A stretch of 29,455 bases of DNA from positions 1-29,455 of the IMG/VR virus record IMGVR_UViG_3300027126_000251. The stretch is one strand, 5' to 3'. The position numbers and the translations under genes were made by a program. This document shows positions 7,924-29,440 of this stretch, piece after piece. The first letter of the stretch is position 1, and each line of letters starts with the position of its first letter. This DNA comes from a virus. The notes below the pieces were generated by a model that saw only the letters and a program-made list of their open reading frames with translations, searched no databases and was not told the DNA's origin.

Positions 7924-8003
7924 TGTCTGTTCCTTATGTGAAATGAGAATTGATTTTCTTGTTTGCGTATTATGCTCTGCTTTTAGCAAACTGAACGACG
8001 CAC

Positions 8004-8031
8004 AATATACCAGATTAACGTAATACGTCAA
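8004..8031 (-). promoter_or_regulatory. Sigma70-like promoter for the capsid gene
   Basis: Minus strand: TTGACG (8031-8026), a 16-bp spacer, TATATT (8009-8004), preceded by the bases TA so that the -35 reads TATTGAC. It begins just after the head protease stop codon and leaves a roughly 70-75-nt leader before the capsid ATG. Two other promoters in this window share the TATTGAC start and 16-bp spacer. Confidence 0.75.
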
Positions 8032-8035
8032 TAGG

Positions 8036-8728
8036 TTATTTCAGATTATCTGCTCTTAGTCTCAGAGCACGAGAATAGAGGTCTGAGCAGTCAACAGGGA
8101 ATGAGTTTCTGACTTCTTCAGGCATTGCATTACGTACAGCAGAGTTCACTGGACGAATAATCTCCTGAATAGAATTGCAGAACTTATTCTCAATTGCCTG
8201 ATTAGCTGTCATGAAGGTTTCATTCTCCATCATGTTCTTAACAGTGTCCGAAGGCAGACCTGTTCGATCAGTGATGATTGCATTGATAGCGTCTCTGTGT
8301 GCTGTCCACTGATTCCTGATATTCTCAAAATCAGATTCTTTTCTGATTTCAGGATACATCATAGGATTGTGGACCATAACAAGACCACCAATGTTGATAG
8401 TACGCTCGTCACCTGCCAACAGAATCCACGAAGCACATGAATAAGCGTAACCATCAACAATACATTTCACTGTACCGTTGTGTTCTCTCAGACGTTGGTA
8501 GATGCTGAGAGCGTTACCAACTTCACCACCACGAGAGTTGATGCGGACAGTGATATCACCCTTCATGGTGTTGAGAGCATCAAGGAATTCATTAGCTGTG
8601 ATACCCGGTTGTTCTTCGTAGTATCGCTGGCTGATGATGTAGTCGTAAAGTTCAATGGTGTTACCATCTACGTTTACAACTGTTGCCGTATTCTCTCGAC
8701 TGCTGTAGTTGAGAACGTATGTCTTCAT
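8036..8728 (-). CDS. Head maturation protease, ClpP-like (S14 family)
   Basis: 230 aa. ClpP-fold signatures appear in order: TVRINSRGGEVGNALSIY (about 60-77, the substrate-binding Gly-rich strand), GYAYSCASWILLAGDE with the likely nucleophile Ser97, and GGLVMVHNP with catalytic His120. An acidic residue further on (ITDRTGLP) probably completes the triad. Such proteins occupy the prohead protease position in many HK97-like phages and trim scaffold and capsid delta domains. The start overlaps the portal stop by four bases (ATGA), and the gene lies directly upstream of the capsid gene. The C-terminal about 70 residues are helical and may act as self-targeting or scaffold sequence. Confidence 0.9.
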   Translation of the reverse strand: MKTYVLNYSSRENTATVVNVDGNTIELYDYIISQRYYEEQPGITANEFLDALNTMKGDITVRINSRGGEVGNALSIYQRLREHNGTVKCIVDGYAYSCASWILLAGDERTINIGGLVMVHNPMMYPEIRKESDFENIRNQWTAHRDAINAIITDRTGLPSDTVKNMMENETFMTANQAIENKFCNSIQEIIRPVNSAVRNAMPEEVRNSFPVDCSDLYSRALRLRADNLK

Positions 8729-10503: not shown

Positions 10504-12403
10504 CTTTTAATCCCGGAATGTCTGTAATGAGTTGCTGACCATGATACATGGAACCGCCAATAGCCATAAGCAGAGCTACGATACCGTCAATCTTGTCTGT
10601 TGACTTATCTTTGGCAGGTCTCATCTGATCGTTGTTGTTGGTGGTGATAGACACGTTACCTATCATCCATCGAAGAACAGGGTTAGTACCGTGGAAAAGT
10701 TCTTTATTCTCTGCAGCAGCTTCTAATCTTCTGCAAGGTCCGTTCATTCCGACATAACTCTGAGGATATTTCTTTGAGTTGAGACCAGCATTGTAAAGTG
10801 TCTCATAGATGAAGTTGCTTCCCCAAGCGTCGAAAGTTACTAGGTGTAAGCCTTTGAAATAGTTGCAAATGCCTGTGTGTGATCCATCACCTACAAGAGC
10901 CTTTGCAATATCCCTTTCTGAAATAGAAGCTAATGGAGTATTATTGATAAGACCTGACTTAAACCATCTATCGTAAGGAAGTCTCTCTTCAACTGATCGA
11001 CGATAGATTGATTCAGCAGGAACCCAGAACCACGGCAGAACTATTCCCTGTGTCGGGAAGTACAAAACGAATGAAGCAATGTCTTTCACACTTGTATTGT
11101 CATAACCGCCATAACATTCGGCTTCAACAAGTTCTTCCAGTTTCTTAAAGTACCACGTGTAATACGCTTGATACTCAGAAAGATAGATATCTACTTGTGG
11201 AGTTGAGAACCATTCAGGAGATGCAGCAAAGTTATGCCACTTTCGGTGATTATACAACCTATTCTTAATTTCGTCAATAGGTAGTAGTTCTGTTTCGGTG
11301 TTGTTTCCATTAGCCCATACCCAACTAGGAATCCACACTGTTTCTGTTTTTGTGCGTACATTAAGATGCAGACGAAGAAATCTGTTAAGAAGAACAGGAT
11401 TATTCTCACAGATTCTAATCTGTTTCTCAAAGTAGTCAGCGTAGATACTTACGCCGTAATTAGGATTGGCTTTTCTCCAGACTGATTCCTTTCGGAAATC
11501 ATCATCTATTTGGGCTTCATAGATTACTGGCAAGAAATATGGTTCAGATGTTTGACCTTTAGCTACGGAAATGGCTCTGTCGTATAACTGATTACATGTT
11601 GAAGGTCTGTCGTAGTCTGCTGTTGTTGTGTAGATTGTGAGAGACTGTCTACGTGCAGCCGTACCAGTGATCATTACGTCAATCAGTTCGCTGCTCTTGT
11701 GTGCATGAACTTCGTCGATGTAAACGTAATTAGGTGACAGACCGTGTTTTGTTTCGGCAATAGCTGAGAGCACTTTGAACATGCTTCCATCTTTAGCATA
11801 CTCAAAGCTTTTAGTGCTTCTGTTTACCTTGTTCTGTCTGAGACGATTAAGAAGGTTTGGATTGTTCTCAATGATGTAAGACGTGTGTCTGAAGTTTACA
11901 GAAGCTTGTTCAAGGTCTGCAGCACAGCAAAAGTTTTGACTACGTTGTTCCTTATCGACGTAAAACATGTACAGGGTTGGAACTGAACCAAACGCTGTAG
12001 TCTTACCATTCTTTCTAGGAACGTAAATGAATACTTCAGAGTATCGCCTGAAATTAGTCTTCTTAGACTTCCAACAGAAGATGTTGAAGTAAACTGCCCA
12101 TTGCCAAGGTTCAGGAATGAACGGCAGACCTGTATTTTCACCTTCAGGAAAGACAACTTCATTGATAACGAACTGGATGAACTTATGCATTTCATCCAGA
12201 TCGAAGTAATAATCTTCAGCATCTTGGAAGCAATCGTAGTAAGGGATTGACTTAAGAAGTTGAGGAATATTGAATTGTTTGTATTCGTAGCCTACAAGTA
12301 CGTCAGCGTTACGGATAGGTACAGGCACTTCCTGTGTACACTTACCGTCACCACCTTTGAAGAAACGTTTGTAGGAGACTTTGCTAGCTGTAGGAGCTAT
12401 CAT
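10496..12403 (-). CDS. terL: Terminase large subunit (TerL)
   Basis: 635 aa with the two expected domains. ATPase: Walker A-like PRKNGKTTA (129-137), Walker B YVYIDEVHAH (227-236), and the coupling motif TIYTTTA (257-263). RNase H-like nuclease: acidic positions in GGYDNT (D436), LVTFDAWGS (D526) and DKIDGIVALL (D607). This is the HK97-type packaging motor, which cuts concatemers and pumps DNA into the prohead. The start sits in an ATGA overlap with the preceding fibre-like gene. The small subunit is not adjacent; it is at 24419-24910 in another operon. No defect is apparent in any motif. Confidence 0.95.
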   Translation of the reverse strand: MIAPTASKVSYKRFFKGGDGKCTQEVPVPIRNADVLVGYEYKQFNIPQLLKSIPYYDCFQDAEDYYFDLDEMHKFIQFVINEVVFPEGENTGLPFIPEPWQWAVYFNIFCWKSKKTNFRRYSEVFIYVPRKNGKTTAFGSVPTLYMFYVDKEQRSQNFCCAADLEQASVNFRHTSYIIENNPNLLNRLRQNKVNRSTKSFEYAKDGSMFKVLSAIAETKHGLSPNYVYIDEVHAHKSSELIDVMITGTAARRQSLTIYTTTADYDRPSTCNQLYDRAISVAKGQTSEPYFLPVIYEAQIDDDFRKESVWRKANPNYGVSIYADYFEKQIRICENNPVLLNRFLRLHLNVRTKTETVWIPSWVWANGNNTETELLPIDEIKNRLYNHRKWHNFAASPEWFSTPQVDIYLSEYQAYYTWYFKKLEELVEAECYGGYDNTSVKDIASFVLYFPTQGIVLPWFWVPAESIYRRSVEERLPYDRWFKSGLINNTPLASISERDIAKALVGDGSHTGICNYFKGLHLVTFDAWGSNFIYETLYNAGLNSKKYPQSYVGMNGPCRRLEAAAENKELFHGTNPVLRWMIGNVSITTNNNDQMRPAKDKSTDKIDGIVALLMAIGGSMYHGQQLITDIPGLKDV

Positions 12404-14067
12404 GGATTTTCAACAAACTTAAATTGTGTTGTTTTGAATGTCTTTTGAGCGTCTTCTGATATCCAGATGAATTTCAATCGACCTTCGTAAGTAAACTCTG
12501 GAACGCCTTTAGAGGTTTCTGAAGAAGGAAGTATAATACTAACTACGCTTGATGCATAGGTACACACTCCTGTAATCCATTTTGATTCTGGATCGCCTGT
12601 TCTGTAGGCTATGAATTCAATGTCAGCGTCAACAAGAGCCAGAGAACCGATTGACGTAATCGGATCGCCTTCACTGTCAAGAATAGATACCTCAATATCT
12701 CCTGTGTCAGCATCATAGCTGTCACCGATGATTAATTCTGAAGGGAAACCTGTAATAGTTCCCGGAGCAAGAACAGCAGCAGCTATTAGAGAAGTGTTGC
12801 CTTGTGCTGTTCCGATAAGATCTGTTTTAGCTTTTACCTGTAGTAATGTGGTCTGTGAGGCATCACCGGCACCAGCAGTAGCAGAGTCACTAATCGCTTC
12901 CAGAGAATCAGTTGTGCCAGCGAATGTTGCAGTGCCGCCAGTGTTGATTTCGGTCTGAGCAGTTGTCATGCCTGCAGTACCTGCATCCTTCCGACTGATT
13001 CGGCGAACCCAGTCAGCCAGAGAGGTAATACCTGTGAACAGAGTAGAGGTGATACGTGTTACAAGATTACCTGTATCCGTTTTGACTGCAGCAATATCTG
13101 CAGCAACTGATGTAACAGGAGTACCGATTTTAGTGCTTACAGAAGCAATATCGTTAGATACCGTTACTGAAGGAATACCAATACGAGTCAGAATTGTATT
13201 AATCTGAGTAGCCGAATCATAGTCCACAATCTGTGGCATAATCACAGCAAACCGAGCTTCACCGCTGACTGTTCCTGAAGCTGCAAGTTTCAATGTTTCG
13301 TTTGTTGAAGACGAAGCAATAGTGATGGTGATTCCATATCGGCCCGTAGCAATAGTGCTTGTTGCAGTGATGAGAGCAGAACGGTCTGTACCTGAAGCAT
13401 TAACAAGAGTTAATGATGGTGTTGAGTCCAAAGCAACCAGTTTGTCTTCATCGTCTTTCACAACCAGTTCAAACAGGTATACTCGATTTCCGCTGTCAGG
13501 GATTTCAAGTAATAGACTTCCGAAGATGTTTGCCTTTGCAGACAAGTTATTCAGAGCAGTGATACTGGACGCGATTGCCTGTAGTGCGGACGAATTGCTG
13601 TCAATCTCTGTTCTGATCTGCGTAACAGTAGGAGGAGTGAGACCGCTTTGATAGGCCCCAACACTTGCGTCAATTCGCCCGCTGATCAATGCAGCAGGAA
13701 GCTTCGCGAGGATCGCCGTCTGAGCATCAGAGACGTTTGTTGGGGTTGCTGGGGCAGTGTCGCTACCACGTTCAGCCAACACAACAACAGCGTGCCAGTG
13801 AAAAGGGGGTTGAGCCACTCCGCTGATAGTGACATTTTCAGCGAAACCATACACATCATGTTCCGCCTCTCCGGCAGGATCAAATGAGCATTGATACCAG
13901 CCAGTTGTTGCTGCAGGCTTTGTGACTGTGACAGACTCACCAGTCGGTACACCAGCCTTATACACGGTGATAGTAGGATTCGCATCACCATTAACAGCAC
14001 CTGAGGCATTCGACAGACGAATATCCCACGTCCAAGTTGTATCTTTTTTGAATATAGCTGGACGCAT
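12400..14067 (-). CDS. Fibre- or baseplate-like virion surface protein
   Basis: 555 aa, no signal peptide or membrane segment. The N-terminal about 95 residues form a beta domain (MRPAIFKKDTTWTWDIRLSN to FHWHAVVVL) resembling the N-terminal domain of upper baseplate or tail fibre proteins. The middle is low-complexity Ala/Ser/Thr/Ile-rich sequence with repeating 'ASVSTKIGTPVTSVAADIAAVKT'-like heptads (single pieces visible at about 285-345), which suggests a trimeric coiled coil. This is followed by WVRRISRKDAGTAGM and a TTDSLEAIS motif seen in several phage fibre-like proteins. The C-terminal about 100 residues are another beta domain. It sits between adhesin-like proteins and TerL, an uncommon place for fibre genes. 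Receptor binding is inferred from architecture only. Confidence 0.6.
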   Translation of the reverse strand: MRPAIFKKDTTWTWDIRLSNASGAVNGDANPTITVYKAGVPTGESVTVTKPAATTGWYQCSFDPAGEAEHDVYGFAENVTISGVAQPPFHWHAVVVLAERGSDTAPATPTNVSDAQTAILAKLPAALISGRIDASVGAYQSGLTPPTVTQIRTEIDSNSSALQAIASSITALNNLSAKANIFGSLLLEIPDSGNRVYLFELVVKDDEDKLVALDSTPSLTLVNASGTDRSALITATSTIATGRYGITITIASSSTNETLKLAASGTVSGEARFAVIMPQIVDYDSATQINTILTRIGIPSVTVSNDIASVSTKIGTPVTSVAADIAAVKTDTGNLVTRITSTLFTGITSLADWVRRISRKDAGTAGMTTAQTEINTGGTATFAGTTDSLEAISDSATAGAGDASQTTLLQVKAKTDLIGTAQGNTSLIAAAVLAPGTITGFPSELIIGDSYDADTGDIEVSILDSEGDPITSIGSLALVDADIEFIAYRTGDPESKWITGVCTYASSVVSIILPSSETSKGVPEFTYEGRLKFIWISEDAQKTFKTTQFKFVENP

Positions 14068-15122
14068 TATGTTGCCCCAAATACTGAAGGAGGATGAAAC
14101 ACATTTTTGACCCCACCAGCGGAAAGTGTTACGAGTGTTCCGCTTGAATCTCTGACCCCAAGAGTCGCCACAGACAAGTCAATGAAAGCGACCTTGCCTG
14201 CATAAGGGAACACTCGATTGGTTCCCATCTCTGCACTTGCGATTGTTGTACTTCCAGTAACAGAACTGTTCACACCCGGACCCACATTGGAAATTGCCTT
14301 ACCATTTACAGTCAGTGTGCCTGTTCCTGTGTTACTAGCTCCGTAGGCCGTCGCGTTGCTGCCACCAGTGGCGTTGCCGGTGACTGTGATAGTTCCAGAG
14401 GACGAATTGAGAGCACCTATAGCAATTGCTGCCGAGCCACCGACAACAGAGCCGACTATAGTAATTGTGCCCGATCCGGCATTTTGCAACCCTGACGTGC
14501 TGCTCGCGGTGCCGCCAGTGACAGTGCCAGTCACTGTGCCGCCGCCACTAGCCCAGTATGCCGCCATCCCAGCCGCATTACCTGTGACAGTCCCTGTGAT
14601 GTTCAGCGTTCCTGTTGACGCATTTCTCGTTCCTGCGGAAGCAGACCCAGCTCCAGCCGAGGGGTTTCCTGTGACGTTCACAGTTCCAGTAGAGTTATTG
14701 AGTACGCCGAAAGCACTCGCTGCCGCTCCTCCGGTTGGATTACCAGTGATGTTAAGCGTCCCGCTGCTGGTGTTCGAGACACCGTAGCGACTGCCCGTTG
14801 TTGCTGATCCAATCGGATGCCCTATCAGCGTCGCAGAGTTACCGGTAGTTCCGGCGAAGGTAACGCAAGTCGTGCTACCCGCACGTGCTTCGCCGTTGCC
14901 ATTATTCAATGTCAGTGTCACCCCATTTGACAAAGTGAAACCACCACCTGCAACGGCTGTAGTCCCCGCCAGAGTGTACGCATTTTTCCAATGCGTGTTT
15001 ACATTCACGGTCACGGTGAACCCATTGGCATAGACATCATCATCTATGGCAGGGAGGGTTCCTCCATTCCATGTTGCTGTTGCGTTGGCATTTCCTGTTG
15101 CCACTGCCCATCGTTCAGCCAT
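14067..15122 (-). CDS. Repeat-rich beta-solenoid adhesin-like protein (shorter paralogue)
   Basis: 351 aa. After an N-terminal segment (ATGNANATATWNGGTLPA, YANGFTVTVN) it consists of about eight imperfect repeats of 20-25 residues with the consensus S/T-G-T-h-x-h-T/N-G-N-x-T-G-G-x-A. That pattern is expected for a right-handed beta helix or stacked solenoid. A conserved tail follows (LTVNGKAIS...GKVAFIDLS...VFHPPSVFGAT). The full length aligns with residues about 235-608 of the next protein upstream, so the two are paralogues. The start is linked to that gene by a TAATG overlap. The DNA is visibly GC-richer than its neighbours, which suggests separate acquisition. Likely virion-surface, host- or polysaccharide-binding; no enzymatic motif seen. 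Confidence 0.6.
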   Translation of the reverse strand: MAERWAVATGNANATATWNGGTLPAIDDDVYANGFTVTVNVNTHWKNAYTLAGTTAVAGGGFTLSNGVTLTLNNGNGEARAGSTTCVTFAGTTGNSATLIGHPIGSATTGSRYGVSNTSSGTLNITGNPTGGAAASAFGVLNNSTGTVNVTGNPSAGAGSASAGTRNASTGTLNITGTVTGNAAGMAAYWASGGGTVTGTVTGGTASSTSGLQNAGSGTITIVGSVVGGSAAIAIGALNSSSGTITVTGNATGGSNATAYGASNTGTGTLTVNGKAISNVGPGVNSSVTGSTTIASAEMGTNRVFPYAGKVAFIDLSVATLGVRDSSGTLVTLSAGGVKNVFHPPSVFGAT

Positions 15123-16010
15123 TATGCAACACCTCCAAAAATAGTGGGAGGAGCGAATACACTCTTTGGAGACCCTGCAGTGAGGTTTTGTGTCGTCAAC
15201 GCTGCGTTTCGAACAATAGCACTAGCAGTAGACAGGTTGGTCATCTCTACTTTACCCTCAACTGGTGCGATACAGGAAGATCCTGTTTCCATAGACTCCA
15301 CACGAGTGGTTCCGGTTGTAGAACCATTCACACCAGTAGCAGTGGCGGATATTGCTTTACCGTTGACTACAAGTGTGCCACTGCTTGTGTTGCTAGCTCC
15401 GTATGCTGTGGCGTTGGTTCCGCCTGTTGCATTACCGTTCACGGTAACTGTGCCTGCACCGGCATTATACACTCCCCATGCTCTGGTACTACTCCCCCCA
15501 GTGACGTTGCCGTTAATGACAACTGTGCCGCCTACTAGATTTGCAACTCCTGTGGATAAATCAGCACCTCCACCTGTCGCATTTCCATTCACTGTCAACA
15601 ACAGAGCAGATCCCCAATTGACACCGTGAGTACTACTCACACCCCCACCAGTAGCATTACCATTTATAGTAGCAGTACCGTTTGTGGTGAACCGCACTCC
15701 GGTAGTGGTAGATCCACCCAACGGAGTACCAATTGTATCACCATTCAATAACAATGATCCGGTTCCTTGGCAGCGAAGCCCTTCTGATCCTGATCCAATA
15801 CCACCATACGCGTTGCCGGTAACGACAATGTTTCCATTCGACCAGACAACCCCGATAGAGCCACCTGCTGATCCGCCTGTAGTATTTCCTATCAAATTGA
15901 ATGTTCCTGTCTGGGAAACATTCACTCCATGGGCTGCAGTGTTCGTCGCTGAACCCACCACATTACCAACAAGTGTTGCTTGATTCGGAGAGGTTCCGGC
16001 ATAAGTAATA
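14290..16010. repeat. Tandem degenerate coding repeats in two paralogous genes
   Basis: Each unit is roughly 60-75 bp and encodes a variant of SGT-hydrophobic-T/N-GN-x-TGG. The units run about 14300-14800 in the shorter gene and about 15390-15960 in the longer. The repeats are strong at protein level and moderate at DNA level (recurring CCGGTNACTGT and ACCAGT-type pieces on the plus strand), so unequal recombination or recombination between the two genes is possible. Pro/Val-rich open frames on the opposite strand here are by-products of this repeat. Confidence 0.7.
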
Positions 16011-16948
16011 CATGTCGTCGTTCCAGTGATGACGTTATTACCAGATCCGGTCAATGTCAGTGTCACACCATTCGAAATATTGAAAGTACCTCCAGCAGAT
16101 GCAACTGTTCCTGCAGTGGTTCTGACTGTCTTCCAAGAGGTTGACTCATTGACTGTGACGGTATATCCATTGGCATAAACATCTTGTGTTGATGTTGGAA
16201 CGGTTCCAGTGTTCCATGTTGCTCCGGAATTGCTATTCCCGCTTGCAACTGCGTAGACTTCAGTTGGCGATGCAACAGTTTCCTGCAATGCCAAAACCAA
16301 CATTGCCTGAACGTTGCTGATTGGTTGTCCGTCAGCGTCGTTGGTCCATTCAAATGTTGTTGAACCAATCGCTCCGGCTGCTGCTCTAACACCTGTTGCA
16401 CAAACCATACAACCACCGTTACCAGCGGTAGAGTTGAATGTTTTGCGAACTGTTACAGAGGTTAAATTAGCATTAGCAACAGCACAAGCAGCATCGTCGT
16501 TCAAATCTTCAGCATGTGTACCGATCAGGACAATCAAACAATCAGCAACTGATGTGGTAAATCCTGTAGCTGTGCCTGTTTGACCTGCTGAAGATAGAAC
16601 GCTACCAGCAGAATGAAGAACAGGTGTTGTACCATCGACACCAGAGAATGCTGTGATCCATGCAATCTGATGATCGCCAGAGTCAGCAACAGTTGGTGCT
16701 GTGTCTCCAGATTGAGCTATTCTGCCAAATACATGTAAACGTGTTGCAGATGTTCCACCGGCAGTGCCTGTAGATTGAGGAGAGTTAGGGACTTCCGTCC
16801 ATCCTGCAGGAGCAGAAACAGACTGGTTTGCTGTTTCCACTTTTAACAGCATATAATGTCCTGCAGCCCATCCAACAGGAAGTGCTGGGGTAATTGCTCC
16901 TACACCGGAAGCTTCAACACCAGATGCGACAAATGCTGGAACAGGCAT
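15122..16948 (-). CDS. Two-domain adhesin-like protein with beta-solenoid region (longer paralogue)
   Basis: 608 aa. Residues 1 to about 232 form a compact beta-sandwich-like domain (GWAAGHYMLLKVETANQ, PAGWTEVPNSPQS, HQIAWITAFSGVDGTTPV, VQAMLVLALQE). This type often begins phage and environmental surface proteins and may bind carbohydrate; no catalytic residues were recognised. Residues about 235-608 repeat the architecture of the downstream paralogue: WNTGTVP, YANGYTVTVN, ISNGVTLTL, then Gly/Asn/Thr repeats, then LVVNGKAIS and a VFAPPTIFGG tail. The start at 16948 is preceded by GGAG and lies three bases after the stop of the gene before it. Probably a receptor-binding or capsid/tail-surface protein. 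The assignment to virion rather than secretion is inferred from the absence of a signal peptide. Confidence 0.6.
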   Translation of the reverse strand: MPVPAFVASGVEASGVGAITPALPVGWAAGHYMLLKVETANQSVSAPAGWTEVPNSPQSTGTAGGTSATRLHVFGRIAQSGDTAPTVADSGDHQIAWITAFSGVDGTTPVLHSAGSVLSSAGQTGTATGFTTSVADCLIVLIGTHAEDLNDDAACAVANANLTSVTVRKTFNSTAGNGGCMVCATGVRAAAGAIGSTTFEWTNDADGQPISNVQAMLVLALQETVASPTEVYAVASGNSNSGATWNTGTVPTSTQDVYANGYTVTVNESTSWKTVRTTAGTVASAGGTFNISNGVTLTLTGSGNNVITGTTTCITYAGTSPNQATLVGNVVGSATNTAAHGVNVSQTGTFNLIGNTTGGSAGGSIGVVWSNGNIVVTGNAYGGIGSGSEGLRCQGTGSLLLNGDTIGTPLGGSTTTGVRFTTNGTATINGNATGGGVSSTHGVNWGSALLLTVNGNATGGGADLSTGVANLVGGTVVINGNVTGGSSTRAWGVYNAGAGTVTVNGNATGGTNATAYGASNTSSGTLVVNGKAISATATGVNGSTTGTTRVESMETGSSCIAPVEGKVEMTNLSTASAIVRNAALTTQNLTAGSPKSVFAPPTIFGGVA

Positions 16949-16951
16949 TGA

Positions 16952-17548
16952 TCACTCTCCAACCTGAACAGCAGCTACAAGTTCAGCGTAAGTCGTAATG
17001 CTACCTAACCTGATATTTTCCAATGCAACATTTGTCTTTGCATCGAATGATTGACGTAAGGTAGTCAGATGACTACGTAGAATATCTTTTGCTTCTTCTT
17101 CTTCTGCTGCAACTTTTTGTGCAGAGTACTCTTCTACTGTCAAAGCAGCATAAGGACGTCCACCGTCCAAAGCATAGAAAGCTTCTCGCTGTTCTACGGT
17201 TACTACGCCCATCTGAATAAGCACATTCAGAAGTGTCCAAGTTTGAACAGCAATACTCGGATCTGTTGTATCGACTGCTTCAGATGTACGTTTTCCGATG
17301 TGGACAAACAATGCCCTGAGACCAGCAACTACAGGTTCTGGTGAAGCTGGATGCTTAATTACATCAATCAGTGATCCTTGCCATACATTATCGATTGGAT
17401 CATGTTCAGCAAGATTCTGTTCATCGAAGAACTGAATAACTTCTGCAACTGGAATTTTATCAACTGTTAACGCCTGCAGAATAGGAACAATCTGTTCAGG
17501 AGTTCCGGTAAGCTGTAACTGTTGAGATTTCTGATATCCGTTTAGCAT
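16952..17548 (-). CDS. Unknown soluble protein, 198 aa
   Basis: I place the start at ATG 17548, which follows the upstream stop by a few bases and has AGG 6 nt before it; a longer in-frame start at 17662 would overlap the membrane-protein gene by more than 100 bases. The protein is acidic and mainly helical, with no signal peptide or membrane helix. It begins NGYQKSQQLQLTGTPEQIV and contains IPVAEVIQFFDEQNL, a WTLLNVLIQMGVVTVEQREAFYAL segment, and a Glu-rich helix (VAAEEEEAKDIL) near residue 150. No family recognised. Its place directly before the adhesin pair, in the same transcript, suggests a chaperone-like or structural accessory role, but that is only inference. Confidence 0.65.
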   Translation of the reverse strand: MLNGYQKSQQLQLTGTPEQIVPILQALTVDKIPVAEVIQFFDEQNLAEHDPIDNVWQGSLIDVIKHPASPEPVVAGLRALFVHIGKRTSEAVDTTDPSIAVQTWTLLNVLIQMGVVTVEQREAFYALDGGRPYAALTVEEYSAQKVAAEEEEAKDILRSHLTTLRQSFDAKTNVALENIRLGSITTYAELVAAVQVGE

Positions 17549-17555
17549 GGCAGAC

Positions 17556-17819
17556 CTAACGTGGTAGAATGAATGAGCCACTACCGGGAGTATAGACATG
17601 GTCAGTGGTTTTGATTTTTTCTGGCTCAGGAGCCATGTAACCAAAAATGTGTCCGCATACAAACCCTACTGAGAAGGAAACAGCAGGGTGTCGTAGGGCT
17701 GTTCGTTGCATGAACCGACTAATTGAACTACCGATGCTTAAATTGAAGGTAACAACAACAAGATCGTATATACCGAGGAATATAATAGCCCCTGTTACGA
17801 TTAGTGCTGTCAGACTCAT
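17556..17819 (-). CDS. Small membrane protein, possible holin or antiholin
   Basis: 87 aa. The N-terminus is a strong transmembrane helix (LTALIVTGAIIFLGIYDLVVVTF, residues 3-25). A second moderately hydrophobic stretch follows (AVSFSVGFVCGHIFGYM, about 46-62). The tail is polar (PEPEKIKTTDHVYTPG). The ATG overlaps the stop of the preceding holin-like gene by four bases, so the two are coupled. Size, two-helix topology and neighbours fit a class II holin or its antagonist, but no family match is certain and a general membrane-anchoring role is possible. Confidence 0.6.
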   Translation of the reverse strand: MSLTALIVTGAIIFLGIYDLVVVTFNLSIGSSISRFMQRTALRHPAVSFSVGFVCGHIFGYMAPEPEKIKTTDHVYTPGSGSFILPR

Positions 17820-18197: not shown

Positions 18198-18529
18198 TAA
18201 CCCGCTGTGGATTTATGTTCCCATAGATAGGCTAAGATTTGTGGAGCAATCCATTTGATGAAGAACCATACAAACCAACCTACAGCAATGGATGTTTGTA
18301 ACTCCAAATCACTGTAGGTGTTGATTTTTCCTGATCGCATTAGTTCAACGAATACAGGATAAATTTTGTCACAGGCTTTTCTTTTTCGTTTAGCTTCTTT
18401 CAAAGACTTCTTAACGTGTTCTGAGCCTAAGAAAGGAGAACGTGTCAGACCTGATATGAAAGAGTCACTACATCCGAAACTGGTATGTAGTGACGTCTGA
18501 AGGATACTTTCGGCAACAGTCATTTTCAT
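18194..18529 (-). CDS. Small membrane protein of unknown function
   Basis: 111 aa. The N-terminal two thirds are soluble, with a basic stretch (VKKSLKEAKRKRKACDKIY, about 39-57). One transmembrane helix lies near the C-terminus (SIAVGWFVWFFIKWIAPQILAYLW, about 81-104). The tail is short (EHKSTAGY). Start within an ATGA overlap with the CxxC-protein gene. The C-terminal anchor with a basic cytoplasmic part is compatible with a lysis accessory or membrane-tethered factor. No family recognised. Confidence 0.6.
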   Translation of the reverse strand: MKMTVAESILQTSLHTSFGCSDSFISGLTRSPFLGSEHVKKSLKEAKRKRKACDKIYPVFVELMRSGKINTYSDLELQTSIAVGWFVWFFIKWIAPQILAYLWEHKSTAGY

Positions 18530-19296
18530 TTGAAGTTTACCGTTAGGTTTGGACAGGTTGTAAGTTCCGCCTCAATACGTTTCCCACTGTCTTTGATTGT
18601 TAGCTGTTTCAAAGATGTGGAATAACTGAAGATGCCTTTCTTCGCATGGATAGTAGGTGGTGGTGAGAATACGATTTTGTCTTTCTCAATAGAGACTGTT
18701 CGTTTACCGTTCCAGTCAATTGTAAGTACACCGTTAGTCCAGCGTTGTCCACTCATTAACGTGTTGATCATTCCCGGAACAGCATCGGGAGCATCAATAT
18801 CAATTTCGAATAGTGAAGAGTATGTGTAGTCTTTACTGGATTGGCAGAGCAGATGATCTGTGAGAGTGGCAAGAAACACATGAGCAGATGGAGCGTATTG
18901 CACTTCTGCTGATTGTGTATTGATTGGAGCGGAGTAATCGAATTCAAATGGGATGCGAGTAACGATCTGACCTAGTTGTGCAGCTTCTGCAATTGAAATC
19001 TCTGTGAAGGCAATACCTTGAGACTTCAAATAGTTCTTTCTTGGAATGCAGTAGGCACAGTTGGGACCAGTGACAAGATAATGTACCTGAGGAGCACTAC
19101 CTGTTACCTGATTCCATTTGACTTCAAACTTATCTTTCTTCTTCTCTTCCTTAACAGCTTCCTTGACTGCATACTGAGAAAGAACTTGTTTGTAGACTTC
19201 TCGTGCTTTTGTGAGGTGACTGTAATCGATATCCTCATAATCAGGAGGAACATATCCTTCAAACATGAGCGACAATAGTATCATCCAAGCAACCAT
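18526..19296 (-). CDS. Exported thioredoxin/glutaredoxin-like CxxC protein
   Basis: 256 aa from ATG 19296, chosen for TTGGAG six bases upstream; an ATG 12 bases earlier is possible. The N-terminus (VAWMILLSLMFEG) is hydrophobic and may be a short signal or anchor. A Lys/Glu-rich linker follows, then a thioredoxin-fold start: QVHYLVTGPNCAYCIPRKNYLKSQ, with CAYC as the redox motif and a helix behind it, and GIAFTEISIAEAAQLGQIVTRIPFEF as the next beta-alpha part. The cis-Pro-like IP near residue 132 fits the fold. The C-terminal about 110 residues are a separate beta domain of unknown type. It overlaps the end of the protease gene by 16 bases. Likely role: disulfide reduction or exchange outside the cytoplasm; substrate unknown. 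Confidence 0.6.
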   Translation of the reverse strand: MVAWMILLSLMFEGYVPPDYEDIDYSHLTKAREVYKQVLSQYAVKEAVKEEKKKDKFEVKWNQVTGSAPQVHYLVTGPNCAYCIPRKNYLKSQGIAFTEISIAEAAQLGQIVTRIPFEFDYSAPINTQSAEVQYAPSAHVFLATLTDHLLCQSSKDYTYSSLFEIDIDAPDAVPGMINTLMSGQRWTNGVLTIDWNGKRTVSIEKDKIVFSPPPTIHAKKGIFSYSTSLKQLTIKDSGKRIEAELTTCPNLTVNFK

Positions 19297-20144
19297 TGTG
19301 AACTCCAATCGATTTCTCGTGGTTCAGGTGAAGAAAGATCTGATACGCCGATAGTGACAGTGAAATTGCTCATTGCCTGTTGTTCGATGAACTCACGACT
19401 CTGGTAAGAGAATCCTTTGTCACCGTAGGATTCGTAATGGCTGTTAGCCTCTACCAGATAGATTACCCCATCAATAGTAATCCAGTCAACGTATGAGCGA
19501 GCATGACCGCCTCCACCGTCAACAAAACGAGTACAAATACCTCTTGCATTAGGTCTCCAGTTTCCCCATGAACCGCCAACAATGACAGCACCTTGGTTAG
19601 CTTGCAGGAATCGAAGAATATCATCAAAGCCTTTAAGCTCAATTGAATAACCAATCTTCCAATCTGCTGCAATCTGAGCAGAGTTTGGAGGATACGACAT
19701 GTTGTAGTCTTGTCGATATGGGATTTCAACAACACCATCGTTATCGAAGTCTTCAGGCAGGAAACCTACGTTCTTAGCAGCTTTGACAACACCGTGTATA
19801 GTGGCACCACTGTCACCACGAATATTGTTAACTTCCTGCCCACGACGATAGGACCACATTGGGTTGAACTGTCGCCATTTCAGAGTCTGAAGGTAGTATG
19901 TTACTTCTCCGGAGTTGGTCATACCGAAGCCAGAACAACTACTGATTCGTCCCTGATCGTCTCGCCTCATGAGTTCTTTGATTTTACGTGTTGGTGGTAT
20001 ATCACCACACACTACAAAATCTTTAGGATCGAAGTTGATACATTCAGCTTTTAGTAGTTCTCTTGGCTCAGCGTATTTATCGTAACCTGACCACCATTCA
20101 TCAGGAATAAACGATCGTCCCTGTGGTGTAACGATGCGACTCAT
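19281..20144 (-). CDS. Papain-like cysteine protease (C1-like)
   Basis: 287 aa. The catalytic layout of clan CA is visible: Gln64 (DDQGRISSC), nucleophile Cys70 in SSCSGFG, His214 in GGGGHARSYVDW, and Asn234 in VEANSHYESYG. The six-residue Gln-to-Cys spacing is that of papain. No signal peptide and no pro-peptide are evident, so release would need a holin or other export. The gene overlaps both neighbours (ATGA with the upstream exported-protein gene, 16 bases with the CxxC gene), placing it in one translational unit with them. No muramidase or amidase is visible in the window, so this is the only candidate lytic enzyme here. Alternative roles are virion-borne protease or host-protein cleavage. 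Confidence 0.78.
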   Translation of the reverse strand: MSRIVTPQGRSFIPDEWWSGYDKYAEPRELLKAECINFDPKDFVVCGDIPPTRKIKELMRRDDQGRISSCSGFGMTNSGEVTYYLQTLKWRQFNPMWSYRRGQEVNNIRGDSGATIHGVVKAAKNVGFLPEDFDNDGVVEIPYRQDYNMSYPPNSAQIAADWKIGYSIELKGFDDILRFLQANQGAVIVGGSWGNWRPNARGICTRFVDGGGGHARSYVDWITIDGVIYLVEANSHYESYGDKGFSYQSREFIEQQAMSNFTVTIGVSDLSSPEPREIDWSSQWLLG

Positions 20145-22274: not shown

Positions 22275-22655
22275 ATGCGTAAGCGTATTCCGATTGAAAT
22301 TTATGCAAAGATACTTCGAGAGAGAATGACACCATGCGAGCTAAAGCTGTGGAATCGGTTGAAGTATATGCAGGAATTCAAGTTTGAGCCGCAGATACCC
22401 GTTCATGGGTTTATACCTGACTTCTTCTGTGAAGAGTTACAATTGGCGATAGAAGTTGATGGTCAGATCCATAAAACATGGATCAAGAAGAAGAAAGACC
22501 AGCGGAAGGATACGATATTGGCAAGAAAAGGTGTAAAGGTGATCAGGTTTACCAATACTCAGGTCGCCAATAGTCTCGGTAGGGTGGTGAAGGCTATCAG
22601 AATCATCGCTACGATGCACAGGAACGCTCAGGAATGCATCAAAAGGAAAAGATGA
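22275..22655 (+). CDS. DUF559 / Vsr-like endonuclease-fold protein
   Basis: 126 aa, about the normal length of the DUF559 family. Core of the restriction-endonuclease-like fold: TPCELKLWNRLK helix (19-30), then FIPDFFCEELQLAIEVDGQIH (catalytic-type residues D49, E60, D62 and H66), KDQRKDTILARKGVKVIRFTN (74-94). A basic helical tail ends in KRKR. AGGGGG stands 5 nt before the ATG. It is a lone gene on the plus strand between two minus-strand operons, as expected of a separately acquired 'moron' gene. DUF559 proteins are predicted DNA nucleases; a role in exclusion of other phages or DNA repair is inference. Confidence 0.8.
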   Translation: MRKRIPIEIYAKILRERMTPCELKLWNRLKYMQEFKFEPQIPVHGFIPDFFCEELQLAIEVDGQIHKTWIKKKKDQRKDTILARKGVKVIRFTNTQVANSLGRVVKAIRIIATMHRNAQECIKRKR

Positions 22656-24990: not shown

Positions 24991-25329
24991 TCAGACGTTT
25001 GTGTGAGGTGCTCTAGGGCATCGGCGTTCAAGGTCTTCAATCTTCTTCTCAGCAATTTCCAGACGCCTAAGAGCATCTGTAACGCGAATGTGTAATGTGG
25101 CGAGTGGTGACGTGTGTCCGCCTACAATACTGCTGAATGGGATCTCTGCATTCTTGCAGGCTGTTTTGATGTTAGCTGCTGAAGGAACAAAATCACACCT
25201 TTCAGCCATAATGGCAATGCAATCATCGATGTTGTTGAACTTTGTACCTCTTGCATGAACATCCATTACCGTAGTCATCAACTGGTGGACTTGTTTGAAG
25301 CTAAGTGATTTAGGAGGGGCTGACTTCAC
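24991..25329 (-). CDS. Unknown protein, 112 aa (GTG start)
   Basis: Start assigned to GTG 25329, as GGAG lies 7 nt upstream inside the glycosylase gene's end; an ATG at 25380 lacks a ribosome site and would overlap more. Predicted helical: FKQVHQLMTTVMDVHARGTKF, DDCIAIMAERCDFVPSAANIK, then a charged coiled coil (ALRRLEIAEKKIEDLERRCP). The last part could be dimerising, and the middle could bind DNA (helix-turn-helix-like spacing at DDCIAIMAERCDFVPSAANIK, untested). Unknown family; possibly a regulator. Confidence 0.6.
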   Translation of the reverse strand: MKSAPPKSLSFKQVHQLMTTVMDVHARGTKFNNIDDCIAIMAERCDFVPSAANIKTACKNAEIPFSSIVGGHTSPLATLHIRVTDALRRLEIAEKKIEDLERRCPRAPHTNV

Positions 25330-25750
25330 TGTAATTCTCCGTAGGTAGTAGGGAAAAACCTTTGCTTGTGATGCGTTCAATAATCAATTGTCGGTCGGCT
25401 AGTGTGGGCTTGTAGTCGTAGTTGACTTTGAACATGTCTGCACCACGTTTAACCCACATTCCACAATCATCTGGATGACGAAAGGGAAAACTGTTCATCT
25501 TTGATGTGACATTGAAACCTCTCTTTCTACATTCGGCTAGTAGGGCAGTGTAACGACGTTTGAGGTAGTAGAGTCGCTGATAGAAGAATCTGACATGACC
25601 TTCATTCAATGTGAACTCTTTAGGTATCTTGTCAAACTTTGCTCTGCCTGACAATACAAAGTTTGGTATGCGAGTAATTTCGCGATGTTCTGCAAGCAGA
25701 AGTTGACTAGGGAGTTCTGAAGGATGAACACCCACATTTATCCGTGTCAT
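25310..25750 (-). CDS. denV: Pyrimidine dimer DNA glycosylase (T4 endonuclease V / DenV-like)
   Basis: 146 aa from ATG 25750; the frame is open further upstream but those codons lie in the promoter region and are not family-like. The N-terminus MTRINVGVHPSELPSQLLLAEHREITRIP aligns with T4 DenV (MTRINL... HLMAEYREL). It conserves Thr2, the reactive N-terminal amine, Arg23 and the catalytic Glu24 (T4 Glu23), with one residue inserted. GHVRFFYQRLYYLKRRYTALLAECRKRGFN (51-80) matches the core helix '[30 protein letters not shown]'. Excises UV photodimers and nicks the abasic strand. Suits a phage exposed to sunlight. It overlaps the next gene by 20 bases. Confidence 0.9.
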   Translation of the reverse strand: MTRINVGVHPSELPSQLLLAEHREITRIPNFVLSGRAKFDKIPKEFTLNEGHVRFFYQRLYYLKRRYTALLAECRKRGFNVTSKMNSFPFRHPDDCGMWVKRGADMFKVNYDYKPTLADRQLIIERITSKGFSLLPTENYSEVSPS

Positions 25751-25790
25751 GCGTTGGTCTCCGTTGGTGACATGTGTGACGACGTTGAGA

Positions 25791-25819
25791 AGAATATATG
25801 TTGGTTTTGTATGTGTCAA
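25791..25819 (-). promoter_or_regulatory. Sigma70-like promoter for the denV operon
   Basis: Minus strand: TTGACA (25819-25814), 17-bp spacer, TATTCT (25796-25791); alternatively TATATT at 25798-25793 with a 15-bp spacer. A second TTGACA (25827-25822) starts 8 bases further upstream (TTGACAGCTTGACA). The operon's first gene begins at 25750, giving a short leader. Confidence 0.65.
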
Positions 25820-25969
25820 GCTGTCAATAGGGAATTTTGAGAAATAATTACTACAAAAAATGCAGCTTTGGCACAGAGAGGTACGCCTAAACTCGCGACA
25901 GGTAGGGACACCCCTACTCCCTTGTATGTTGGGCAACCTGTGCCGGTTGTAACGTAGTGGGTAGATTTT

Positions 25970-26056
25970 GAGGGCTGGATATGAGAGGGAGGAATAGCGG
26001 GGATGTATGGATGGTATGGATTGTGAGAGGGTAGGGTGGTTCACCCCTGTTTTTTT
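25970..26056 (+). ncRNA. Possible GGA-rich small RNA with terminator
   Basis: Six GGA motifs lie within 44 bases (25977-26020), several as AUGGAU or GGGAGGA. They are followed by a GGGTG-GTT-CACCC hairpin (26034-26046) and seven T residues (26050-26056), a plausible Rho-independent 3' end. CsrA-sequestering RNAs carry repeated GGA motifs, and the window encodes a CsrA. No convincing promoter was found upstream, and the 5' end is unknown, so this is only a candidate. Confidence 0.35.
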
Positions 26057-26081
26057 GAATTGAAACGAGTCATCTCCAGAA

Positions 26082-26110
26082 TTGACTACTGAAGGGAATG
26101 AATGAGTAAT
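26082..26110 (+). promoter_or_regulatory. Weak candidate promoter for the plus-strand operon
   Basis: TTGACT (26082-26087), 17-bp spacer, AGTAAT (26105-26110): a good -35 but a poor -10. It lies after the terminator-like hairpin at 26034-26056 and before the GGTAGGG boxes. A start here would give a leader of about 400 nt with several hairpins. Confidence 0.3.
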
Positions 26111-26174
26111 GCCTGACAGGACTACTGTCAGTGAGTACTACTGGGGATGATGTGTGTGAGTCTGAAGGGTACGG

Positions 26175-26451
26175 CCTACCGCACTATGGTAGGTTACTGT
26201 TATGATCACATTGTAGGGTAGGAAATACCCGTAGTGATTCAATATGCAAACACTGTGCCAATGAATGCTCTGAACACTACTGAACATTTGATTTTAGGCT
26301 AAATCGTTCAGAATCGATTCCGATGCCTTGGTATGATGTGATTGTCATCCGAGCAGCTTCGAGCGTTTACGCTCATTTTATGCGATTGTAGACCATGGTA
26401 GGGTATACCCGCACTACTGATAGTAGGTGGTCTATGGTAGGGAATTCCCTA
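26175..26451. repeat. Palindromic GGTAGGG/CCCTACC boxes
   Basis: CCTACC-7-GGTAGG (26175-26193), GGGTA-5-TACCC (26216-26230), GGGTATACCC (26401-26410), CTACT-GAT-AGTAG (26413-26425) and TAGGGAATTCCCTA (26438-26451) are all inverted repeats of one theme; ATGGTAGGG also recurs exactly at 26395-26403 and 26434-26442, 39 bp apart. AGACCA (26390-26395) can pair with TGGTCT (26428-26433). These are candidate operator sites for a repressor or activator controlling the divergent operons. The last palindrome is followed by TTTTTC and could also slow transcription. Confidence 0.65.
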
Positions 26452-26511: not shown

Positions 26512-26886
26512 ATGGCTTCCGAATGGTTCGGGAGTCTTCGGTTGAACGTAGGAAACGAACGGGAGTGTATGACCATGGTGAAGACTGAATTGACTGATGC
26601 TGTTGTGAGTCTGAATTCTGAATATCGTAGTAAGTCTGACGATGTACTTACCGTCAATCGCAATCTGGACATGGTGGAACAGATCGTCACTGCCGATGCG
26701 TTCCTGTCAGACTCAGGGAAGGGCATCAAGGAATACGAGGGAAGAGTTGAGTCTGTTCGACGATCAGTGCGGGGTGTTACACTGCTGCTCAATACTGGAA
26801 AACAGGTTTGTTGGAAACTGTCTAATGTTGCTGCTGACATGTTGTGTGATAGTCTGACCGGGGTAGGAATGGTTGTTGTTCGTTAG
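26512..26886 (+). CDS. Unknown small protein, first gene of the amidoligase operon
   Basis: 124 aa from ATG 26512; in-frame ATGs at 26569 and 26575 (with GGGAG just upstream) are equally plausible and would give 105 or 103 aa. Helical and charged, with ELTDAVVSLNSEYRSKSDDVLTVNRNLDMVEQIV and a C-terminal beta-like VTLLLNTGKQVCWKLSNVAADML. No signal peptide, membrane helix or known motif. Followed by a terminator at 26898-26930 and then the amidoligase gene. It may be the acceptor or a regulator of the modification system, but this is only inference. An overlapping open frame on the other strand is less likely, given the operon direction. Confidence 0.5.
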   Translation: MASEWFGSLRLNVGNERECMTMVKTELTDAVVSLNSEYRSKSDDVLTVNRNLDMVEQIVTADAFLSDSGKGIKEYEGRVESVRRSVRGVTLLLNTGKQVCWKLSNVAADMLCDSLTGVGMVVVR

Positions 26887-26897
26887 TTCGTCTCATT

Positions 26898-26930
26898 AGC
26901 TATCCGGGGAGTTCCCGGATAGCTTTCTTT
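26898..26930 (+). terminator. Intrinsic terminator or attenuator between first and second genes
   Basis: AGCTATCCGGG (26898-26908) pairs perfectly with CCCGGATAGCT (26914-26924), 11 bp with a GAGTT loop, followed by TTCTTTGTTGTT. The U-tract is interrupted, so partial termination into the amidoligase gene 34 bases further on is likely. Confidence 0.85.
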
Positions 26931-26963
26931 GTTGTTAGTTGATTGTTTAGAAGGGTGAATACA

Positions 26964-28550
26964 ATGCTTAGTTTTTCTGCTGGTGTCAATCGTATTCCTG
27001 AAATGCGAATCGGTGATTCAATGGCCGTTACTTTCCGGAATAATTATGAGGGGTATATCGCTAGAGTATGTAATGTACAGCACAGGAGAGGACATGACTT
27101 CCCGTATGAATTGAGGTCTGAGAGGGTATTGGGTCTGGAGGGATTCAGGCTAATCGATTGTGTCGGATTGACACCGTCATGCTATGACGAAAATGGCAAT
27201 CTGAAACATGACTGGAGTGATTTCTTTCATATCACTGGAATTGCTGGATCAGTTATGCCGATTCCGGTGAACGCTGTCGTGATTGATTATGCTAAGTATA
27301 AACCGCGAGAGGTTACATCCTTGCCGGATAATGTTCAGGCATTGCTGAACGGTAACACTGATGATGAACTGATGAAACTCGTTAACGTCGGCGTTGAATT
27401 GGAATTCAGCAAAGCCGACGGATTGTTGCATTCTGACGAAGACGAACAGGAACATTCAACGGAGGACACACTCCGGAAAATGTTCCATTATTTTGATAGT
27501 GATTTGCCTGTGATTAAGGTGGTCAGTTATTGGTTGAACAACGCTATATATCGCGAGTTCAGCCATTCTATCGATGGGTACGATCCTACCGTATCCAGTC
27601 TGAACGATCCATGTAGTAACGATGTTCAGCATTTTATTCGAAAAGCTTATTACTGGCTCTTATCTGAAGACAGTGTCACATTGATGAACCTGACTACCCG
27701 CGTTGCAGACATGTCGCCTAGTCAATGGAACAATGCTCTCACATTGCTGGAAGAAGTATTCAGCCGATATACTAACTTTGCTGATGCCGAAGAGTGTATT
27801 AACACTCTGTCCGAAGACTATGGATTGTGGCCAAAGCATGACAACGAATGGAAAGAAATCGACGGTTGGTGTAATCATCCCGACGGTACATCTGGCATTG
27901 AGCAGGAGTACACAACAAAAGGCGGACAGACTATCCGGGAGATGCATGAACGGTTAAATGTGCTGTTCAATGAATTGGATAGTGCTGATTGGGATTGTCC
28001 TGTTAATGGTTCATGCCATGTACACGTTCAATTGCCTTACTGTCGTCATAAAATCCAGGCTAAATCATTACTCGGGCAGTGCATCATTTATGAATTGTCC
28101 GAGTGTTTGGCCGATGAAAAGCTAATATCCTCAGGATTAAGGCAACGTCTGGTTGAACGTTGGGAGGATGATAGTGCCACCCAATATTTCCATAATGTTC
28201 TCGGTTTTGACGATCATAAATATAGTGTGATTCATTCGCATTCGCAAGGTACACTAGAGTTTAGACTCTTCGGACATGTGGGGAGTAAGGGACATGTTAA
28301 GGCATGTGTTAATGTTGCAGCATTAGCAACAATACGGGGATTCCGTCGATTCCATGAGGGACGAACAGAATTTCTCGGATTACCAGAATATGATCGATAC
28401 CATAATTTTGGGGATTATTTCTGGAATGCTGCTATTACCGGGGAATTCATGGCTGATCGATGCGAGGAATTGAATCCGCCAACGATTGCCGATGTTATGG
28501 GGATTGAAAACTATCGTTATGTGCCAGAGTCTGAACTGATTTCAGCCTAG
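26964..28550 (+). CDS. Amidoligase_2-type enzyme (glutamine-synthetase-fold)
   Basis: 528 aa from ATG 26964, with GAAGGG 8 nt before it; a TTG 21 bases upstream is less likely. Residues 1-140 are a domain not recognised. Then the amidoligase signatures of the GS-like COOH-NH2 ligase fold: NVGVELEFSKADG (141-153), DGTSGIEQEYTTKGGQ (307-322), CHVHVQLP (351-358) and GTLEFRLFGHVGSKG (429-443), with the helix NVAALATIRGF after it. These glutamates, histidines and Arg would bind ATP/Mg and the substrate carboxylate. Members of this family are coupled with glutamine amidotransferase-like genes, as here. The product would be an amide or peptide-like bond; the substrate is unknown. An acidic Asp/Glu/His stretch at 156-170 is unusual. 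Confidence 0.75.
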   Translation: MLSFSAGVNRIPEMRIGDSMAVTFRNNYEGYIARVCNVQHRRGHDFPYELRSERVLGLEGFRLIDCVGLTPSCYDENGNLKHDWSDFFHITGIAGSVMPIPVNAVVIDYAKYKPREVTSLPDNVQALLNGNTDDELMKLVNVGVELEFSKADGLLHSDEDEQEHSTEDTLRKMFHYFDSDLPVIKVVSYWLNNAIYREFSHSIDGYDPTVSSLNDPCSNDVQHFIRKAYYWLLSEDSVTLMNLTTRVADMSPSQWNNALTLLEEVFSRYTNFADAEECINTLSEDYGLWPKHDNEWKEIDGWCNHPDGTSGIEQEYTTKGGQTIREMHERLNVLFNELDSADWDCPVNGSCHVHVQLPYCRHKIQAKSLLGQCIIYELSECLADEKLISSGLRQRLVERWEDDSATQYFHNVLGFDDHKYSVIHSHSQGTLEFRLFGHVGSKGHVKACVNVAALATIRGFRRFHEGRTEFLGLPEYDRYHNFGDYFWNAAITGEFMADRCEELNPPTIADVMGIENYRYVPESELISA

Positions 28551-28606
28551 TTAGTTTATCGTTCATTCCGTTCATTAGTTTACTGACAATTGAGAGGAAA
28601 TTCACT

Positions 28607-29440
28607 ATGTGTACATTGTACGTTTTCTGGAATGACAAGAAGAAAACCTTCGTTGACCAGATTGCGAAAGACTGGCAGCATAACTCTGATGGTGGTTCGG
28701 CCATTATGCTTGACAATCAGAACAATGTGGTAATGCGTGTTCAAACTACTGATCTTAAGATATTACTGAACTGTATCCGGACAAGTAAGTTTGCACGCTA
28801 CTGCGTTCATCTGCGAGCCGCAACGACAGACGCCCAAGGTGTAACGGGGTGTCATTTCTTTGACTCGCCAAAGGGTAAATATATCTATGCTCACAATGGT
28901 GTCATACATTCAGGGTATAAACACCGTGTTGATAGTATGATTGTCGGGGAATGGTTAGAGTCTGCAGACGATCGTAATAAACTTCCGCCGGAATTGGAGC
29001 ATGAAGGGTTCGCTAATCTGATCGTCTATTCAATGCTGACCGGGGAAATCATTATCCATCATGCAGGAGGTAGTCTTCACAGTGATGGACTAGGAAATTG
29101 GTCAACAAAGTATGTTGATGCATCTTTCAAGAGTCTACGACGGGAAGGTTGGTACGACGACTACGGGAACGTGATTCAATTACATCCGGAAGTGATTACA
29201 CCCCGATATAGCAAATTCTACCGGGGAGACTACGATCTGAACTATAACACTCGCTGCGATTGTTGCGGGGAACATAAAGGGAGTACAATGTATTATGCGG
29301 ATGCGAAATCAGAACTCTGTTACGCTTGTAGACGATCGTTCTATGCTGTTGACGATAAGAAAACAGTATCGGTCAAACTCATTACCGATAAGAGAACTGA
29401 AAAGAATGAGGATAGCAAATTGCTATTGCCAGAAGACTGA
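28607..29440 (+). CDS. Class II glutamine amidotransferase with Cys-rich tail
   Basis: 277 aa; GAGAGGAAATTC precedes the ATG. N-terminal Met-Cys2 gives the Ntn nucleophile once Met is removed. Family motifs: CVHLRAATTDAQG (66-78, the 'HxR..T..G' loop), YAHNGVI (94-100), VDSMIVGEWL (108-117) and a Gly-rich strand LTGEIIIHHAG. It would hydrolyse glutamine and pass ammonia to a partner, evidently the amidoligase in front, 56 bases upstream. Residues about 217-241 carry CDCC and CYAC, a likely zinc-binding knuckle not part of the basic GAT fold. The C-terminus is charged and probably disordered. Ends 15 bases before the window edge. Confidence 0.82.
   Translation: MCTLYVFWNDKKKTFVDQIAKDWQHNSDGGSAIMLDNQNNVVMRVQTTDLKILLNCIRTSKFARYCVHLRAATTDAQGVTGCHFFDSPKGKYIYAHNGVIHSGYKHRVDSMIVGEWLESADDRNKLPPELEHEGFANLIVYSMLTGEIIIHHAGGSLHSDGLGNWSTKYVDASFKSLRREGWYDDYGNVIQLHPEVITPRYSKFYRGDYDLNYNTRCDCCGEHKGSTMYYADAKSELCYACRRSFYAVDDKKTVSVKLITDKRTEKNEDSKLLLPED

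Follow-up and report, generated by a model that had tools for sequence, protein, structure and literature searches.

What would a phage gain from an amidoligase gene standing next to a glutamine amidotransferase gene, when neither product closely resembles the phage enzymes already described? The question is raised by IMG/VR record IMGVR_UViG_3300027126_000251, a contig of 29,455 bases (classed as linear, possibly a fragment) that was analysed over its whole length and is called the window here. At its right end, past a non-coding region, the plus strand carries a ligase gene (26964-28550) and an amidotransferase gene (28607-29440). Both were proposed by an earlier sequence-only reading as parts of a three-gene unit together with a small upstream gene (26512-26886), and all three open reading frames (ORFs) are indeed found at these positions. 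On balance, we favour the view that the ligase and the amidotransferase form a two-enzyme amide-forming unit with a coupled ammonia-to-amide mechanism, diverged from the core of a phage cassette predicted in 2009.

A divergent amidoligase

The gene at 26964-28550 (plus strand) very likely encodes a glutamine synthetase (GS)-fold amidoligase of 528 amino acids and of a divergent Amidoligase_2 type, as indicated by profile, motif and fold matches. The ATG codon at 26964 has a good Shine-Dalgarno sequence (AGAAGGG), and an alternative TTG start is present at 26943. The protein remained below the Pfam gathering score, with no match to Pfam families (PF12224 included) or NCBIfam; this is a detection limit and not the loss of a biological feature, as sensitive profiles do find the ligase. 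A weak match was obtained with PHROG 7631, 'amidoligase enzyme' (E 0.0065). When aligned by hhalign with 14 phage Amidoligase_2 proteins the ligase scored 53.2, compared with 24.0 or less for about 80 unrelated ORFs and 23.0 or less for 60 shuffles. Moreover, a hidden Markov model built from 47 amidoligases, from which the ligase under study was excluded, placed it at the top of 1737 ORFs (E 7e-6), and the profile of the same 47 proteins matched it in hhalign with E 3e-8 and a probability of 95%.

All four motifs used as a test for Amidoligase_2 (GVExE, D-G/S..E, HxH and E-F-R) are present, as are all the family-invariant residues (G143, E145, E147, E315, H352, H354, Y420, E432 and R434). The first catalytic strand carries GVELE (residues 143-147, 27390-27404), in which the G and both E residues are invariant among 48 aligned amidoligases. 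It is followed by the segment DGTSGIEQEYTT (residues 307-318, 27882-27917), which aligns with the DGSLR..EY motif of phage amidoligases and keeps the acidic residues D307 and E315, by the metal-site motif CHVHV (residues 351-355, 28014-28028) with the invariant H352 and H354, and by GTLEFR (residues 429-434, 28248-28265) with the invariant E432 and R434.

In the AlphaFold2 model of the ligase, with a mean pLDDT (the per-residue confidence score) of 58 and a pTM (the global score) of 0.59, only core strands and the helices adjoining them are predicted with confidence. The 50 PDB matches listed for it are all GS-fold enzymes, with Azotobacter glutamine synthetase leading and YbdK among them; since the best E-value is 0.005 and the underlying alignment presumed homology, we take this fold match as support and not as proof. 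The GS-fold amidoligase of the sequence-only reading is thus upheld by motifs, profiles (E 3e-8) and fold matches together, and instead of a structure devoid of a GS-like active site we obtained one whose best matches are glutamine synthetases and YbdK.

Two regions of the ligase are additional to this catalytic core. The first is an N-terminal extension (residues 1-140, 26964-27383) with no known relative, whose pLDDT mostly stays under 45 as far as residue 120. The second lies within the catalytic domain: the GVE and HxH motifs lie 208 residues apart, a distance that is 67-115 in 112 other amidoligases, so that about 100-140 extra, mostly helical residues must be accommodated there. In the model they appear as helices of low to moderate confidence at approximately residues 150-300 (27411-27863). 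Neither region matches anything, including the gp17-like protein encoded 5' of the ligase in LUZ24-type phages. The idea that the extension might be a fused gp17-like protein, suggested by GFRL stretches that look alike in the two, was discarded, the profile comparison giving a probability of 0.2%. The extension had been described earlier as a recognition domain of 140 amino acids; its existence holds, whereas a recognition role gains nothing from a region that matches nothing and is modelled with low confidence. The insertion, which is the larger departure, and the zinc ribbon of the neighbouring amidotransferase had both been overlooked in that description.

Relatives were sought in several ways. 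Peptide patterns found none for the ligase or for the amidotransferase in viral contigs and bacterial genomes, and two narrow motif patterns returned nothing from viral contigs. Matches of tblastn in 50,697 phages (to a tape measure, a tailspike and a lysin) were weak and at chance level, and were rejected, leaving no close relative.

The adjacent glutamine amidotransferase

The second gene (28607-29440, plus strand) can be assigned, with a confidence as high as for the ligase, to a class II (N-terminal nucleophile, Ntn) glutamine amidotransferase (GAT) of 277 amino acids with a C-terminal zinc ribbon. Cys2 (28610-28612), the N-terminal nucleophile once the Met is removed, aligns with Cys2 of phage and YafJ-like GATs. 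Residues 68-73 (28808-28825) read HLRAAT and include the glutamine-binding Arg70; 40 phage GATs and the YafJ-like proteins all have H68, R70 and T73. The oxyanion-hole Asn-Gly is found by alignment with both groups in HNG (residues 96-98, 28892-28900), and Asp109-Ser110 (28931-28936), the predicted contact for the substrate's amino group, is invariant in the 40 phage GATs. The columns NAHPF and HNGT of these 40 proteins were part of the search pattern and are not counted as evidence. The zinc ribbon, C217-x2-C220 ... C238-x2-C241 (29255-29329), has its four Cys residues aligned in 35-37 of the 40, and two CxxC pairs near the C-terminus occur in 55 of 80 phage GATs.

Database searches point in the same direction. 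The protein matched Pfam GATase_6 with E 0.0017, which is under the curated cut-off. Eight plasmid records were matched by tblastn, four of them annotated as class II glutamine amidotransferase and one further annotated match being an HsdR protein. In a blastp search of 3278 phage-locus ORFs, 12 of the 18 matches were GATs; the whole set contains 80 GATs. Residues 1-160 were modelled with pLDDT of about 60-93, mostly above 80, and matched GlmS, GFAT, PurF, EgtC and AsnB (E 1e-5, probability 1.00). The earlier assignment to the Cys2 class II enzymes is therefore confirmed by the retained Cys2, Arg70, Asn97-Gly98 and Asp109 and by the matched Ntn fold.

Such divergence raises the question of whether the pair is a decayed or repurposed relic in which one enzyme has become non-catalytic and serves a regulatory or binding role. 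This would be in keeping with the identity of only 13-23% between the ligase and any amidoligase, and with the disappearance of several phage-GAT motifs from the amidotransferase. On the other hand both reading frames are intact, and the known or predicted catalytic residues are all kept in the two proteins while their surroundings diverged, which suggests continued selection. We consider a relic very improbable.

A putative amide-forming unit

The adjacency of the two genes, which lie on the same strand with a gap of 56 nucleotides, was noticed in the sequence-only reading and has many parallels. Among 80 phage class II GAT loci drawn from IMG/VR by a motif scan, 59 also encode an amidoligase, usually accompanied by a COOH-NH2 ligase and frequently by an ATP-grasp enzyme, so that such pairs are common in phages. 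The amidoligase gene is located upstream of the GAT gene in 22 of these loci and downstream in 37, and the gap observed here falls within the range seen where the ligase gene comes first (-13 to 101 nucleotides, one outlier aside). Annotated examples include LUZ24, phiEco32, PA11, RIO-1, Salmonella phage 7-11, A24, J3S and Lyrsu01. The cassette was predicted by Iyer et al. (2009), as cited in PMC3890496, PMC10580990, PMC6209634 and PMC11945000, and these four papers name it a putative peptidoglycan modification module or a set of auxiliary metabolic genes, suggesting as its function a cell-wall change against superinfection or the synthesis of metabolites; they contain no functional test of the cassette and report no activity of a phage member. 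The pairing of an amidoligase with a class II GAT is thus already known, and the present pair is, to judge from its sequence, a far-diverged variant of it.

How might the two enzymes work together? Class II amidotransferases form a gamma-glutamyl thioester on Cys2 and release ammonia, and amidoligases form an acyl phosphate with ATP and then an amide. By analogy the Cys2 enzyme would attack glutamine at its side-chain amide (or act on a gamma-glutamyl amide), pass through a Cys2 thioester and free ammonia, while the GS-fold ligase would spend ATP on activating a carboxylate to an acyl phosphate and join it to an amine, most simply the ammonia derived from the amidotransferase. The joint ammonia-releasing and amide-forming role put forward earlier would still be the likeliest chemistry. 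Substrate choice, or the way in which the two proteins dock on each other, is most likely governed by the additional parts of the ligase (its N-terminal extension and its helical insertion) and by the amidotransferase's zinc ribbon, and the target is probably a peptide of the host envelope or peptidoglycan, or a small molecule made during infection.

Several observations weigh against this view. The contig ends 15 bases past the amidotransferase gene, so the remaining genes of a cassette could be cut off; in the window and in the contigs of sister phages (large terminase subunits 33-80% identical), incomplete as the contig is, the COOH-NH2 ligase, ATP-grasp and gp17-like genes are absent. Both the ligase and the amidotransferase genes are likewise absent from the covered parts of the sister phages, and the pair is therefore left without confirmation from a close relative. 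The AlphaFold2 models of both enzymes were built from alignments that assume homology. Finally, three motifs of phage GATs are missing from the amidotransferase (RG..S/TG, RN..RP and SE), with His25-Asn26 in place of the Arg-Gly of the first. As the YafJ-like members compared are also devoid of RG, this loss is not fatal and class II membership stands; it nevertheless excludes the subtype of the typical phage and GlmS/PurF enzymes. The phage GAT profile matched the protein in hhalign at a probability of 64%. A small YafJ-like set reached 87%, where size-matched phage sets reached 4-79%. Because these scores overlap, the protein was assigned to neither the phage nor the YafJ-like subfamily. The slightly better YafJ-like scores and the lost phage motifs imply that the enzyme may be no classical ammonia donor.

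This last point leads to another possible route. GS-fold enzymes such as YbdK and the glutamate-cysteine ligases couple the side-chain carboxylate of glutamate to an amine, and EgtC removes a gamma-glutamyl group in ergothioneine synthesis. The ligase could do what the former enzymes do, and the Cys2 enzyme could later remove or transfer the gamma-glutamyl group, with no free ammonia passed on. The presence of YbdK among the fold matches of the ligase and of EgtC among those of the amidotransferase agrees with such a route, as do the HxRAAT and (G/N)CHxF motifs and the missing RG, which the amidotransferase shares with YafJ/EgtC-like GATase_4 proteins, its slightly higher scores with them than with size-matched phage sets, and the frequent occurrence of a gamma-glutamyl cyclotransferase in phage cassettes. 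However, phage profiles match the amidotransferase almost equally well, its zinc ribbon links it to phage GATs, the aligned stretch is short, and fold matches do not distinguish a hydrolase from an ammonia donor. We regard the gamma-glutamyl route as unlikely.

The target might also be of a different nature and not an envelope peptide or small molecule. The pair could instead modify a virion protein, nucleotides, or the DNA of the phage or its host, where a carboxylated base might for example be amidated. There is a precedent in a phage ATP-dependent amide ligase that adds glycine to carboxymethylcytosine in DNA, some relatives of which have a glutamine-hydrolysing domain (PMC12783734). In that system, however, the ligase is asparagine-synthetase-like and stands next to CmoA and a methyltransferase, none of which was recognised in the window of this incomplete contig, and such a target seems quite improbable to us.

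A further alternative concerns the relation to the cassette. The pair could be a self-contained two-gene amide-forming system separate from it, in which the N-terminal domain and the extra helices of the ligase stand in for the missing partners and steer the reaction to another kind of target, such as one particular host protein. The dedicated partner of the ligase would then be an amidotransferase of a YafJ/EgtC-like kind with a zinc ribbon. We hold this to be rather improbable, and prefer the diverged core of the predicted cassette. If the pair is complete, its shortness and divergence would make it a small system for finding the substrate, with the extra regions hinting at where specificity may reside; and if it does work without the COOH-NH2 ligase and the ATP-grasp enzyme, it would reveal the minimal core of the cassette.

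The small upstream gene and the hairpin

Upstream of the ligase, 26512-26886 (plus strand) encodes a protein of 124 amino acids with no family match, the translation of which may instead begin internally, at 26569 or 26575. It is probably a real gene, with an in-frame coding bias of 0.23 bits per codon against 0.08 or less in the other five frames. No relative was found in Pfam, PADLOC, viral contigs or sister phages, the PHROG and NCBIfam matches were weak and implausible, and none of the proteins of the known phage cassette, gp17 included, matched it in profile comparisons.

Twelve bases past the stop codon of this gene begins a terminator- or attenuator-like hairpin (26898-26924, plus strand) of 12 pairs, seven of them GC, followed by the T-rich tail TTCTTTGTTG. 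Its fold has a z-score of -3.25, and none of 200 shuffles was as stable. The 40 bases 5' of the ligase gene showed no good promoter, and the hairpin could therefore also be an attenuator. The compact three-gene unit of the sequence-only reading is not supported, as the hairpin lies between the small gene and the ligase. The suggestion that the 124-residue protein is the acceptor or a specificity factor fares no better, given the hairpin after its gene, the lack of relatives in viral contigs and sister phages and the lack of a cassette profile match.

Genomic context

The genes for the large subunit of terminase (10496-12403), the portal (8725-10503), a Clp-type head protease (8036-8728) and the major capsid protein (6484-8031) are all on the minus strand, and by these genes the contig comes from a tailed phage, in agreement with what had been read from the sequence before. 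The terminases of two sister phages (L004 2064-5108, G005 12370-14748) are interrupted exactly at the Walker A motif (PRKNGK|TT) by an intein-like insertion. The insertion exists in one short and one long form with nearly identical ends, and starts with Ala, not Cys. The terminases of the window and of G008 have no such insertion.

Between the terminase and the genes on its right, 12400-17662 encodes four large minus-strand proteins (555, 351, 608 and 236 amino acids) with no PHROG match and no convincing Pfam match; the two at 14067-16948 are unmatched even in the sister phages. The protein encoded at 18526-19308 shows a weak thioredoxin/glutaredoxin match and 54% identity in two sister phages. 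Within the minus-strand block, a plus-strand gene at 22275-22655 encodes a DUF559/Vsr-like nuclease (PF04480, E 2e-23), possibly of the homing type, a relative of which is found in G005 at the matching place and in the matching orientation. At 25310-26044 a pyrimidine-dimer DNA glycosylase is encoded (PF03013, E 1e-14; PHROG 1183, E 7e-29); the match is limited to residues 99-228, and the true start of this gene is therefore probably internal.

Near-palindromic repeats (GGTAGGGTATACCC, GGTAGGGAATTCCC, GGTAGGAAATACCC and others) are clustered at 25901-26450, in or beside the non-coding region that separates the minus-strand genes from the plus-strand pair. Their motif occurs 11 times in the window, a count reached by none of 100 shuffles, where 2.4 matches would be expected, and a related form of it does not cluster in the sister contigs. 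The repeats are possible operators or an origin.

Comparison with known systems

With glutamine synthetase, YbdK and gamma-glutamylmethylamide synthetase the ligase has its predicted fold in common, whereas there is no detectable sequence similarity to these enzymes and the set of active-site motifs is another one. It also compares with Amidoligase_2 (PF12224), with which it shares the GVExE, HxH and GTxEFR motifs as well as the GS fold, and from which it departs in staying below the detection threshold and in its N-terminal extension of 140 residues and longer GVE-HxH spacing.

The amidotransferase resembles the YafJ/EgtC-like proteins (PF13230, GATase_4) in HxRAAT, (G/N)CHxF and HNG, in its similar length and in the lack of RG. 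However, PF13230 itself is unmatched, the (N)GDGFG motif of these proteins reads NSDGGS here, and no zinc ribbon was seen in the YafJ-like examples compared.

As a whole the pair is best set beside the cassette of the LUZ24, phiEco32, PA11, RIO-1 and Salmonella phage 7-11 type. In phages of the LUZ24/phiEco32 type a gp17-like protein is encoded directly upstream of the ligase, which neither the 124-residue protein nor the N-terminal extension matches; moreover the catalytic domain of the present ligase is enlarged by additional residues, and the partner enzyme is shorter (277 amino acids against 356-512 in the aligned set) and without RG..S/TG. Nevertheless, in those phages too an amidoligase (PF12224) adjoins a class II GAT (PF13522) on one strand, with the same catalytic motifs and with a zinc ribbon at the end of the amidotransferase.

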